Virus record (IMG/VR): IMGVR_UViG_3300049830_000074
Coordinates: 1-46,836 of that record
Strand: one strand, 5' to 3'
Length of the DNA stretch: 46,836 nt
Origin: a virus
A program made the position numbers and the translations under genes. The notes beneath the pieces are model-generated. The model made no database searches. It was given only the letters and a program-made list of their open reading frames with translations, and was not told the origin of the DNA. Positions 33,007 to 38,411 of this stretch are shown here, piece by piece; the stretch's first letter is position 1; every line of letters begins with the position of its first letter.

Positions 33007-34564
33007 TTTCGTCCTTCGGTACGTCAATCATCATTTGCTGCATTTCCTGTTCGTGCTCACGGTCGCCGGGACCACCCGGCACGACTTCCGGCATACCGTT
33101 ATAGCCTGAATCGGGGTCGTTCACCAGCCGTTGACGCGCATCGAAGCCGTCGATAGCACCAGAGTTGATAAGGATGGCATCGGTTTCGGCCTTGGTTTTG
33201 TTCAACGTCGCTTGTTCTTCCGCCGTTGGTGAATCGCAAGGTTTCCATGTGATTTCGGTGCTGAATGGCGCAACGCCCATTTTGGGGGCAATGATGCTGC
33301 GAATCACAAGCAGGTGATGACGTTCAATCAGCGGCGCGAGTTCGTTTTCCTGAATGGATTCGAGATACTCGTGATAGCTGGCTTCCTCGTATTCCCCCGT
33401 GGCATTGAAACCCTTGGGGGTTGTGCCGAGCAGTTTGGTGGCAGGAACGTCAGCAGCAGCCGCTACGAGTTGATATTGCGTCATGATGGTTTCATCCAGT
33501 GAAGCGAGCGTGGTGTCGAATTGCTGTAACTCCTCACCCTCCCCGATGACTTTAATCCCGAAGTTGTTCTGATAGCTGGCCCAAATCTCCATCTTCTGCG
33601 AGAATTCCACTGGGTTCGCCAGCGCCTTCGTCACATCGGTTTTGATGGAGGTCAGCCGCTTGCTCATCGCCAACATGGGGGCTTCGTTCGCCGTGCGCTC
33701 CGCCGCGTAGACGCGCTCGAATATCTTCTGCGGTGTCGGGATGCCGCCGTAAAGATACGATGGCTTGAGGATGTCCGTCACTTCATCCCCGTTGCGCATG
33801 ATGACGAAATGCGTTTTGTGGATGCGCTTGCCGTTCACCCGCCACCATGTCGGTTCGTAAAACTCACCCGATGCTGGATTTGCCGCCGCGTTGCCGTCGA
33901 GTTCGGGCGCAACCCAATAGGGGTCGATTTGCACGATGCCGCGATAACTACCGGGCTTCACACCATCGGGATTGAAGGGCAACTCGTAGTCGATACCGTC
34001 CACGATGAACAGCGCATGGCGGATGCCGAAGATACGCCCGTTCTTGATGAATTCGATACATTTCTTTTTCAGCTTGAAGCGTTTGTCCAGCTTGCGCATG
34101 GAGTCAAAAACCTTTGGGTCGAGGTCTTCACCATCATTCGAAGTGATTTCCCAACCGTGGCGAACAGCATCCCTACCGGGCATGGTGCACGCCTTGTCGA
34201 TGAGCCAGTTTTGGGCAAGGATGGCGCAGGTTTGCCAGCCGATGAAACCTTGCGCGGCGTACCATTCAAGCTGTGCGAGGGGGAGATAACCCCCAGTGTT
34301 TGCCACCATCTTCGCGGTGCTTAAATCGGGGTATGCTTCATCCATCGCGTGCGTGACACCGCCGATGGGCGCGCCAGTAGAATCAACAGCCTTGAAACTC
34401 TCGATGCCGCGTTGGAAGGATTTGCGCAGGGCGTTCTGCATACGAATTTGCTCGCTCATTTGCGACGGCGGTGTGATTTGAGTCGTGAAGAAGCCGGAAC
34501 GCACAGGCAATTCGGCTTTCTCGACTTGGGGCGCTTGCCCGAACAACCAATTTCTCAATCCCAT
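32951..34564 (-). CDS. Portal protein (DUF1073)
   Basis: A 537-aa portal from ATG 34564 (preceded by AGGGGG). It has the DUF1073 portal pattern: [52 protein letters not shown] and [26 protein letters not shown] followed by [16 protein letters not shown]. The C-terminal ~50 residues are charged and extend over the start of the minor head gene. The frame is open 44 codons upstream of the chosen start but there is no ribosome site there. Confidence 0.93.
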
Positions 34565-35984: not shown

Positions 35985-36363
35985 CGCTCATCTCCTGAAT
36001 TGCTGCAATATCGGCGTTGATGTTTGTTTGCACCAGCATACCGTCAATTTGTTCGTTCACCATTCGATTTGCCTGAATGTCGCCGTTCAATGCCTTGGTG
36101 AACACCGCGAGCGCCGCGCCTTGGGCGAACGTTCGTTTGCGGGGCAGAACGCGCTTCACAGAATTCTTGTCGTCAGCATCATACGTTTGCGCTCCGATAT
36201 AGCGCATGGCGTTGCGATGCGACCACGGCTTCGATGCGCCTTCGATGTGCTGCGATTGTTTATTGCCCCCCGGTTGGCCGAACTGCGTGGGCTTCTCCGA
36301 TTTCGCCAGCGCGTCACGCTGCCGCTGTTGGGGTGTTCGTTCTTCTGTGGGTTCGTCGGTCAT
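35857..36363 (-). CDS. Probable terminase small subunit
   Basis: A 168-aa protein directly upstream of and overlapping terL. The N-terminal part (FGQPGGNKQ, SHRNAMRYIGAQTYD) and the helical RTFAQGAALAVFTKAL segment resemble DNA-binding small terminase or DUF5681-like proteins; the C-terminal half is acidic ([20 protein letters not shown]). Position is the strongest argument; the sequence itself is only suggestive. Confidence 0.72.
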   Translation of the reverse strand: MTDEPTEERTPQQRQRDALAKSEKPTQFGQPGGNKQSQHIEGASKPWSHRNAMRYIGAQTYDADDKNSVKRVLPRKRTFAQGAALAVFTKALNGDIQANRMVNEQIDGMLVQTNINADIAAIQEMSDGELFEQFKQVAAAIESLATGESWPQLGDGDTTAGGSEEPFA

Positions 36364-36752
36364 TTTAGTACCTTATGTTGTTCCGCCATCATTCTATTTG
36401 GCTTAGAACCTTGGCGCAATGGTAAAGGTTCTGAGCCGCTACACGGGAAAAACACCTCATTTATTAACAAGCACCCGCAATCATACTCTTTATTTTTTAG
36501 TTTTTTCTTTAACTTTTTAATTCTTTTGGCAGAATGATGAGGATTGCGCGTCATGCGTTTCTTGCCATTATGCAGCATCATGTGGTCAGCACCCCAAATA
36601 AGCACAAGATTGAACGGGTCGTTATTCCCGTGGTCGCCGTCAAGATGATGTATATCGAACCCGCGCTTCAAAAGCGTCATCAATTCGAATACATCCATGC
36701 TTGAATTATCCGATAACCAAGCGTAATGATAAGGCTCTAGCTTACGTGACAT
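36360..36752 (-). CDS. HNH endonuclease next to the terminase genes
   Basis: A 130-aa protein with an HNH core at residues 33-62: DIHHLDGDHGNNDPFNL and IWGADHMMLHNG. A basic Lys-rich stretch follows (KRIKKLKKKLKNKEYDC) and then a Cys-Gly-Cys element. HNH proteins beside terminases assist specific DNA cleavage during packaging (e.g. HK97 gp74). It overlaps the small terminase start by ATGA and the GNAT gene end by 16 bases, so it is co-transcribed. A homing role cannot be ruled out. Confidence 0.85.
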   Translation of the reverse strand: MSRKLEPYHYAWLSDNSSMDVFELMTLLKRGFDIHHLDGDHGNNDPFNLVLIWGADHMMLHNGKKRMTRNPHHSAKRIKKLKKKLKNKEYDCGCLLINEVFFPCSGSEPLPLRQGSKPNRMMAEQHKVLK

Positions 36753-37153
36753 TGTGATTCCTCAGGTTGATAACGGTAAGAAAACGTTTTCACCTTTTTG
36801 CGAAAGCCTGTGTCGCGTGTCATGTTACCGCCACCTGATGCTGTATCATACGCGATTTTCTCAAGTTTCCAATTTTTATCATTTGCGCGTGATTTTACCA
36901 TGACCAAATTACTTAATTTGGCAAACAATTCATGGCCTTCGCAAAGAATTTCTGCTGTTTTATTTACCAATTTCATGCCAAGCCCGAAGCCGCAAAAGTC
37001 AGGATGGATGACGGTGCGATTGCTGTGCAGCTTGCGCGGTTCGTTTTTGTCGCGCCACGGCGTGTATTCCGCCCAGCATTGAAAACCGACTTGTTCTTGC
37101 CCAACAAATAAACCATAAGTTTTGATGTAACCACCGGGCAAATTCTCGTTCAA
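36737..37153 (-). CDS. GNAT acetyltransferase-like domain, probably 3' part of an ATPase-GNAT fusion
   Basis: Taken alone this frame can only start at TTG 37153, overlapping the ATPase stop (TTGA), with no ribosome site. It contains the GNAT motif-A region SNRTVIHPDFCGFGLGMKLV (acyl-CoA loop FGLG). The same frame stays open upstream to about 37255 and there encodes IRECDKRTWRYFSKYHYLNE, which fits the missing start of the GNAT domain as found in COG2401 proteins. So the true product is probably ATPase-GNAT made by a -1 frame change at the T9 tract 37238-37246. The substrate is unknown; the GNAT-fold Mom protein of phage Mu modifies adenine, which is suggestive only. Confidence 0.8.
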   Translation of the reverse strand: MNENLPGGYIKTYGLFVGQEQVGFQCWAEYTPWRDKNEPRKLHSNRTVIHPDFCGFGLGMKLVNKTAEILCEGHELFAKLSNLVMVKSRANDKNWKLEKIAYDTASGGGNMTRDTGFRKKVKTFSYRYQPEESQCHVS

Positions 37154-37863
37154 ATAGTGATACTTGCTAAAATAGCGCCAAGTGCGCTTGTCGCATTCTC
37201 GAATGTCGAATTGGATTCGCTCGGTTCGTTTGAAGTCAAAAAAAAAGCACGTCGGTCAATGTACTCGGCTTTGTTGCAATCAATTATCCAACACGGGTTA
37301 AGCCATTCTATTACATCGTAATGACACGAAAGCAACACCACTTTCTTGCCGCTGCGACGCGCAATCTTTTGCACGGTGTGCGCCATTGCCTTCGCCACGG
37401 TGCGGTCGACCACCGAAGTAAATTCATCAATCACGATTGTTTCGTCATTCGATGCGAGGCGCAAAGCTATTTCAGCGCGTGCTTGTTGCCCGTTGCTCAA
37501 TGTGGCGGCGGGCCTTATCCAGCACGTCACGCTCGACAACCCCGCGCCGCCTAACGCCGCCGCGCAATCGTCAAACGTCATGCTTTGCGGGAATTGCTCA
37601 ATCACAGGCAGGGCCTTATCCAGCACGTCACGGAAGCAATCACCGAATATCTGGCGCGCAAGCGTCGTCTTGCCTGAGCCTGATGCGCCCACTATCAGCC
37701 CGACGTTGTAGGGCGTGTTTAAATCGGCTTCAATATGCAGCGCGTGCGTCAGCTTTTTCGCCACATCAAGGTCGGTGCTGTTCGCGGCTTTGATGCAACG
37801 GAAGCTGTTCGAAGGCTGCGCGCTCAACAAAACGTCATAGGATTTCAGGACAGAAGTTTGCAT
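37150..37863 (-). CDS. ABC-type ATPase (COG2401-like), associated with ParB and GNAT
   Basis: A 237-aa ATPase from ATG 37863 (GGGAG upstream). All ABC motifs are present: Walker A GASGSGKTT (59-67), signature LSNGQQAR (122-129), Walker B TIVIDE (142-147), D-loop and H-switch SCHYD (His181). No membrane domain is encoded nearby, so it is not a transporter. It overlaps the ParB-like gene by 19 bases and the GNAT frame downstream. Its last ~29 residues (after the T9 tract) are low in structure and are probably a by-product of reading the wrong frame; in the COG2401 family the ATPase is fused to an acetyltransferase. Confidence 0.85.
   Translation of the reverse strand: MQTSVLKSYDVLLSAQPSNSFRCIKAANSTDLDVAKKLTHALHIEADLNTPYNVGLIVGASGSGKTTLARQIFGDCFRDVLDKALPVIEQFPQSMTFDDCAAALGGAGLSSVTCWIRPAATLSNGQQARAEIALRLASNDETIVIDEFTSVVDRTVAKAMAHTVQKIARRSGKKVVLLSCHYDVIEWLNPCWIIDCNKAEYIDRRAFFLTSNEPSESNSTFENATSALGAILASITI
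37238..37246 (-). other. T9 tract at the ATPase/GNAT frame junction
   Basis: On the minus strand the ATPase codons read GCT TTT TTT TTG ACT, containing T TTT TTT. A -1 shift anywhere in the tract joins the ATPase at Phe208 to FDFKRTERIQFDIRECDKRT and on into the GNAT domain, giving about 375 aa. It could be programmed ribosomal frameshifting, polymerase slippage, a real inactivating indel, or a one-base sequencing/assembly error in a homopolymer (T10 would give one open frame). Confidence 0.75.
37510..37632. repeat. 22-bp direct repeat inside the ATPase gene
   Basis: The 22-base sequence beginning GGGCCTTATCCAGCACGTCA occurs at 37510-37531 and again at 37611-37632. The spacing of 101 bp is not a multiple of three, so the two copies are read in different frames: one as part of VTCWIRP just before the ABC signature, the other as RDVLDKAL. 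Recombination between copies would delete 101 bp and frameshift the gene. Confidence 0.9.
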
Positions 37864-38411
37864 GGCAACTCCCGCGTTTGCATTTCTTCGAAAAACGATT
37901 GTTGCTGTTCTTCGTCCGGCAATTCCACCAAACACACAAATCCGTCGGTGTCTGTAATGGCTGGGTTTTCTTGTCGATTTGACTTGGGCAACACATCCAT
38001 CCCGTATTCTTCAAGTTCAACGCCGACATAATCCTGTTCCACGATTTCAATATCCCACTCACCGAAATGCGTGTTGTCGGTTATCATGATTTCTTTGAAC
38101 TCGGCCTCGGTGAGCGCACGGTCGGGGATGCTGACATAAACCTCGTCGATTCCTAATTCTTTCAACGCGCGGATTCTTACGTGGCCCCCGATAATTCGAC
38201 CATCAAGCGTGGCGGTGATGGGCTTGTGAAACCCCACACGGGCAATCGAGCGTTTCAGTTTCTCGAAATCCTCTGGCGTTATTTTGCGCGGGTTGCGCTC
38301 GTACGGGATGAGGCTATCGACGCGGGATTTGACCACAGCCCATTGTATTTGCTTAGAAACGCCTGACTCGTTTTCTAAACGGATTGTTTTGTCTGTGGTT
38401 TTGTTTTCCAT
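37845..38411 (-). CDS. ParB/Srx-domain protein
   Basis: A 188-aa protein with the ParB N-terminal domain: SLIPYERNPRKITPEDFEKL, then SIARVGFHKPITATLDGRII and the conserved GGHVRIRALKELG (75-87; phosphate/CTP-binding-type motif in the family). No helix-turn-helix DNA-binding domain follows, so it is not a chromosome-partition ParB; phage members of this type are predicted nucleases or DNA-associated adaptor proteins. The C-terminal FVCLVELPDEEQQQSFFEEM segment is typical of these phage ParB-like proteins. Overlap with the ATPase gene suggests one functional unit. Confidence 0.88.
   Translation of the reverse strand: MENKTTDKTIRLENESGVSKQIQWAVVKSRVDSLIPYERNPRKITPEDFEKLKRSIARVGFHKPITATLDGRIIGGHVRIRALKELGIDEVYVSIPDRALTEAEFKEIMITDNTHFGEWDIEIVEQDYVGVELEEYGMDVLPKSNRQENPAITDTDGFVCLVELPDEEQQQSFFEEMQTRELPCKLLS

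Follow-up and report, generated by a model that had tools for sequence, protein, structure and literature searches.

A phage ABC ATPase-GNAT gene with a conserved second reading frame, very likely expressed by programmed recoding

The locus and its reading frames

The window, that is, the whole 46,836 bp stretch of DNA analysed here, is a virus record that carries phage genes for terminase, portal and tail proteins. Its minus strand encodes an ABC-type ATPase and, in another register, a GNAT acyltransferase (Table 1); both frames were checked directly against the sequence. The joint between the two domains reads ...GAC CGA CGT GCT TTT TTT TTG ACT... and holds the sole run of nine in the window. 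Reading one extra T here gives a single ATPase-GNAT protein of 375 aa.

Table 1. Coordinates of the features at and around the ATPase-GNAT locus.
Feature	Position	Strand	Details
ABC-type ATPase frame	37150..37863	-	237 aa; ATG at 37863, TGA at 37152-37150; P-loop ATPase domain and 29-aa tail (...LASITI), counted from the last codon of the T9 run to the stop; tail overlaps GNAT frame
GNAT acyltransferase frame	36737..37255	-	-1 relative to ATPase; stop at 36739-36737
T9 run at domain joint, predicted slippage site	37238..37246	-	GCT TTT TTT TTG, with U_UUU_UUU inside; A9 on the plus strand
Dual-coded overlap	37150..37237	-	read as both tail frame and GNAT N-terminus
TTG, GNAT's only standalone start	37151..37153	-	overlaps the ATPase TGA
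ParB-like N-terminal domain protein	37845..38411	-	immediately 5' of ATPase, overlapping its start
HNH endonuclease-like small ORF	36360..36752	-	HHLDGDHGNN..N; between GNAT and terminase genes; overlaps the GNAT stop
39-nt direct repeat	37493-37531 / 37594-37632		within the ATPase gene

A preliminary description, made from sequence alone, had claimed that the GNAT frame stays open about 100 bases 5' of its only standalone start, that this upstream stretch fits the beginning of a GNAT domain, and that a -1 shift at the T run restores one 375-aa protein. All three claims held: the frame is open from 37255, the stretch contains the conserved W..F..YHYL motif, and the ATPase and GNAT parts match consecutive portions of one protein profile. 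No ATG, GTG or TTG lies 5' of the conserved N-terminal motif in the GNAT frame, and the TTG was judged unused because its product would lack W..F..YHYL.

The ParB-like neighbour also adjoins the ATPase gene in several phages. The two copies of the direct repeat are 82% identical, with the last 22 nucleotides exact, and are read in different frames; the repeat has the appearance of a recent local copy.

Family and predicted function

The window ATPase scores above the cutoff for Pfam ABC_tran and matches PHROG 11143 with an E value of 2e-56; the ATPase and GNAT cover profile positions 21-193 and 199-355 of 357. The locus belongs to the PHROG 11143 / ABC ATPase-GNAT fusion family, which is common in phages and prophages. 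A DNA-base-modifying role for ABC ATPase and GNAT was predicted by Iyer et al. (2013) and restated later (PMC7824862), where QAX98348.1 is described as pairing a GNAT with an ABC ATPase and predicted to carry out acyl modification of DNA bases (Iyer et al., 2021). That protein has the same two domains, falls in PHROG 11143 and is a member of our homologue set (L133); frameshifting of it is not mentioned in PMC7824862. Following Iyer et al., the function is probably acyl modification of DNA bases; this is inferred, and activity was untested here.

Structural evidence agrees on the folds. The AlphaFold model (pLDDT 90.9) of L003, a relative with both domains in frame, has an ABC fold and a GNAT fold, and single-sequence structure prediction was uninformative (pLDDT 32). 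In a Foldseek/VIA fold comparison the nearest structures were numerous ABC and GNAT proteins whose Z scores are tied and which therefore give no information on the substrate; Mom was not compared. PADLOC gave only weak partial matches, all on the ATPase. An annotated phosphoribosylglycinamide formyltransferase gene lies 3' of the ATPase-GNAT in two relatives from Porphyromonas and Pseudomonas phages (L129, 2592-3065; L131, 2577-3194) and is a possible pathway partner.

Homologues and out-of-frame joints

Searching phages with the locus at the DNA level gave one weak match, and protein searches were therefore used. Sampling relied on conserved ATPase motifs and yielded more than 200 loci from viral contigs, phage records and genome contigs; in the genome contigs alone, 432 homologues matched and 80 were kept. 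Representatives less than 70% identical (n = 127) are drawn from phages and some ten bacterial phyla.

Most homologues carry ATPase and GNAT in one frame, others have GNAT in the -1 frame as in the window, and in a few it is in the +1 frame. The out-of-frame joints hold T runs (T9 in the window, L042 and L076; T7 in L117), A runs (A9 in L060, L119 and L139; A10 in L043, L078, L093 and Flavobacteriia; A11 in L122/L124; A7 in L098), A_AAG_GGC in Oenococcus, or GTTTTTCAATTCCCCCAC in Streptococcus/Lactococcus, where the signal is unresolved. Near-alike joints can differ in frame, such as A10 in frame (L104) versus A11 out of frame (L122/L124). In-frame homologues with a T10/A10 tract include L010, L015, L017 and L047-L053.

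Several relatives have peculiarities of their own. In L132 / L110 (Streptococcus phage Javan420) the GNAT seems further disrupted past the joint, where its profile match begins in another frame, at position 53. In L155 (Nonomuraea turkmeniaca) the frame changes well inside the GNAT domain, after YHYL and unlike the family joint, perhaps through sequencing error or in a decaying copy. The ATPase-GNAT region is unannotated in L130 (Pseudoalteromonas phage SL25), and an ORF overlapping GNAT is labelled DNA polymerase in L128 (Enterococcus phage 9184).

A rival possibility is two translationally coupled genes, in which ribosomes stop at the TGA and restart at the overlapping TTG. A TTGA overlap does occur in the window, in Oenococcus phages and in P335. 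However, the restart product would lack the conserved W..F..YHYL start of GNAT, Streptococcus relatives end there in TAA and offer no TTG, and most homologues are single-frame fusions, so that coupling is very unlikely. No homologue was found to carry a separate GNAT gene with its own start, the result named beforehand as evidence against a fusion; most out-of-frame members have no GNAT-frame start codon 5' of the conserved motif.

A conserved second frame and tail

Every representative (127/127) has a second open frame, GNAT +1, which runs without a stop for 25 codons or more until the YHYL motif and has an identical end codon in 126 of the 127; the other frame is open in 25 representatives. 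Under a synonymous-shuffle null over 22 codons, 70.1 open second frames were expected against the 127 observed, and the control frame showed no excess (26 observed, 31.2 expected). The corresponding log10 P of -43.6 holds if representatives are independent and is overstated, because the 127 share ancestry. An earlier, smaller set (<70% identity) gave 63/63 open against 27.9 expected over 26 codons.

In the in-frame genes the second frame stops where YHYL is encoded (TAT CAY TAT YTR R, read as ...ATT TGA/TAA/TAG), as the window tail does. The stop itself follows from the YHYL protein motif; it is the absence of earlier stops that needs selection. The preliminary description had called the 29-aa tail non-conserved, which held in part: its body is variable, but its frame, end point and last residues are conserved. 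Across the family the tail ends L..I[TI]I, as in the window's LASITI. The last Ile requires that the invariant Tyr of the GNAT frame be encoded by TAT and not TAC, and TAT is found in 124/127 representatives versus a background of 59.5%; at loci above 60% GC it is found in 33/35 versus 21%. Four-fold degenerate sites in the overlap are also more conserved (0.49) than those in flanking coding sequence (0.37 and 0.35). Conservation of the frame and selection on the last residue are thus shown, and the TAT preference and four-fold-site conservation together indicate that the tail peptide itself appears selected, beyond mere truncation.

A broken gene, in which an indel inactivated the GNAT half, would fit a GNAT that is out of frame and without a start. 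This is very unlikely, given that GNAT pairs from out-of-frame genes have dN well below dS, which shows purifying selection, that the conserved residues of the window GNAT are intact and that the tail frame is kept family-wide.

A sequencing or assembly error would make the real run T10 and the gene an ordinary in-frame fusion. In its favour, the T9 rests on a single contig without reads, T10 in-frame homologues exist, and no other copy of this phage's joint was found in the viral contigs, so T9 is unconfirmed by a second copy. Against it, out-of-frame joints with T9, A9 or A10 turn up repeatedly and independently, both in isolates and across many contigs (e.g., Gilliamella, Flavobacterium, Chryseobacterium). 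Furthermore, the second frame is open as well in relatives with T10 in frame, and T10 would therefore not make the window gene ordinary; it would move it to the in-frame-tract class with the same second frame. An error in this one contig is unlikely but not excluded without reads. Of the options first put forward for the locus, the homologue comparison favours programmed frameshifting or transcriptional slippage with two products.

Signals at the joint

The commonest signal resembles that of RF2. The cassette xGG[A/G]GG-NNN-[CG][TA]T is present in frame in 71/127 representatives, and of the 102 in-frame genes 70 carry its [CG]TT form in frame at the joint, against 0 matches at 34,352 positions elsewhere. 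AGG is the second codon in 63 of the 71 cassettes, compared with 7.8% among background Arg codons. The P-site codon is CTT (53) or GTT (17), the A-site codon is CGG, CAA, TGG, AGG or TGT, with no UGA stop, and the base that follows is C in almost all cases, a feature RF2 shares. A +1 shift at this cassette enters the conserved tail frame. Internal initiation from the SD was rejected: no ATG or GTG lies 4-11 nt downstream, and TTG occurs only in the third frame (27 in 111 members).

A or T runs of at least 9 lie at the joint in another 25/127 representatives, mostly of length 9-10, with GNAT in or out of frame. No signal was recognised by pattern in 27 (19 in-frame, 8 out of frame), several of which are near-variants. 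Homologues with a continuous frame carry T10/A10 or the RF2-like +1 cassette, and their second frame is open without exception. By phylum, A runs occur in 13/15 Bacteroidota with no SD (0), and SD occurs in 30/32 Pseudomonadota; SD is generally only weakly used in Bacteroidota, which fits their A runs without SD. The ATPase tree shows 21 changes of mechanism and 13 of frame, with many weak branches. In it the window groups with an SD-class member (support 93), apart from the T10 clade; it is inferred from this grouping that the window's T run probably replaced an SD site.

Run length and frame vary among relatives (e.g., A10 versus A11), as would be expected of phase variation, in which changes of run length in the DNA would switch GNAT on or off between phage individuals. 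Such switching accounts neither for the RF2-like class, in which runs are absent, nor for selection on the tail throughout the family, and is very unlikely.

A model for recoding in the window

More than 100 diverse relatives keep both readings open with differing signals, and two products are therefore very probably made on purpose. We consider it very likely (probability about 0.88) that the window holds one gene whose programmed recoding yields an ATPase with a short tail and an ATPase-GNAT. Both frames are shown, whereas the production of both proteins and their ratio are inferred, as there are no transcript, ribosome or protein data.

In this model, default reading would give the ABC-type ATPase with the 29-residue tail ending LASITI, and addition of a U by RNA polymerase on T9 would join the GNAT frame to give the 375-aa protein. 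Slippage at nine A/T is efficient in vivo in bacteria (PMC5009743), and the window T9 meets the run criterion for programmed transcriptional slippage genes (at least about nine A/T at a frame junction, conserved in relatives). Neither an SD nor a downstream RNA structure above chance level (z -0.23) is present at the window joint, which leaves a -1 stimulatory structure unsupported and the T9 run alone to support slippage there.

The ribosome might instead slip -1 on U_UUU_UUU/U_UUU_UUG and reach the same GNAT frame, a variant of the main reading that does not exclude polymerase slippage. The slippery heptamer lies in frame, the E. coli shift motifs listed in PMC4066793 include U_UU.U_UU.U, and some relatives possess only short heptamers (e.g., Oenococcus A_AAG_GGC and the A7 of L098). 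However, the window lacks an SD or downstream structure, and the run length and frame direction vary in run-bearing relatives, which fits RNA slippage. The type of slippage is thus inferred without RNA data, with polymerase slippage modestly preferred and ribosomal frameshifting the weaker candidate.

ABC ATPases work as dimers, and mixed dimers with and without GNAT are therefore a plausible purpose of making both forms, by analogy with dnaX tau and gamma.

A bolder reading, which we regard as likely, is that this recoded phage gene is ancient and spans phyla, and that its two products (the ATPase with a selected short tail, and ATPase-GNAT) have been conserved while its recoding signal was repeatedly exchanged among runs for polymerase slippage, -1 sites and an RF2-type cassette working on a sense codon. 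The conserved joint signals themselves are shown.

Comparison with known recoding systems

The relatives' cassette resembles that of prfB (RF2) in its SD (AGGGGG/GGAGG), 3-nt spacer, CUU and C after the next codon; RF2 too has GG_AGG, and there UGA is followed by C (PMC5009743). An example is the Rhizobium joint, GGGAGGTATCTTCGAC, beside AGGGGGTATCTTTGAC of prfB. In contrast to prfB, the relatives have a sense codon (CGG, TGG, CAA, AGG) in the A site, not UGA, and it is the shorter product that arises by the +1 shift. The window itself has no RF2-type cassette (CGA CGT GCT TTT TTT TTG does not place an SD 3 nt before CUU).

As in dnaX (slippage in Thermus thermophilus, -1 in E. coli), one gene would give a long and a short ATPase, and Thermus dnaX slips on a run of nine (PMC5009743). 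The protein is unrelated, however, the alternative tail is long and conserved, and one family holds several signal types. The +1 site of yeast Ty1 is the heptamer CUU AGG C. The family shares with it the order of CUU, a slow codon and C, and CTT AGG C itself is present in L046, L072 and L087, but this family is bacterial and has an SD stimulator.

No report of the ATPase-GNAT family as a recoded gene was found in the open-access literature searched, and neither GNAT nor ParB was found in the searched part of Atkins et al. (2016). The domain pair and the base-modification prediction were already known (Iyer et al.); recoding was not described in what we searched.

Significance

If the main reading is true, a large and testable family would be added to the few recoded genes of bacteria and phages, and one recoding mechanism would have been replaced by another within a single gene during evolution. 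The RF2-type cassette would apparently work without a stop codon. Genome annotation misses such recoding, with some relatives split into two genes or left unannotated. Finally, two isoforms and a selected C-terminal tail would be a fresh lead on the mechanism of this predicted DNA-modification enzyme.
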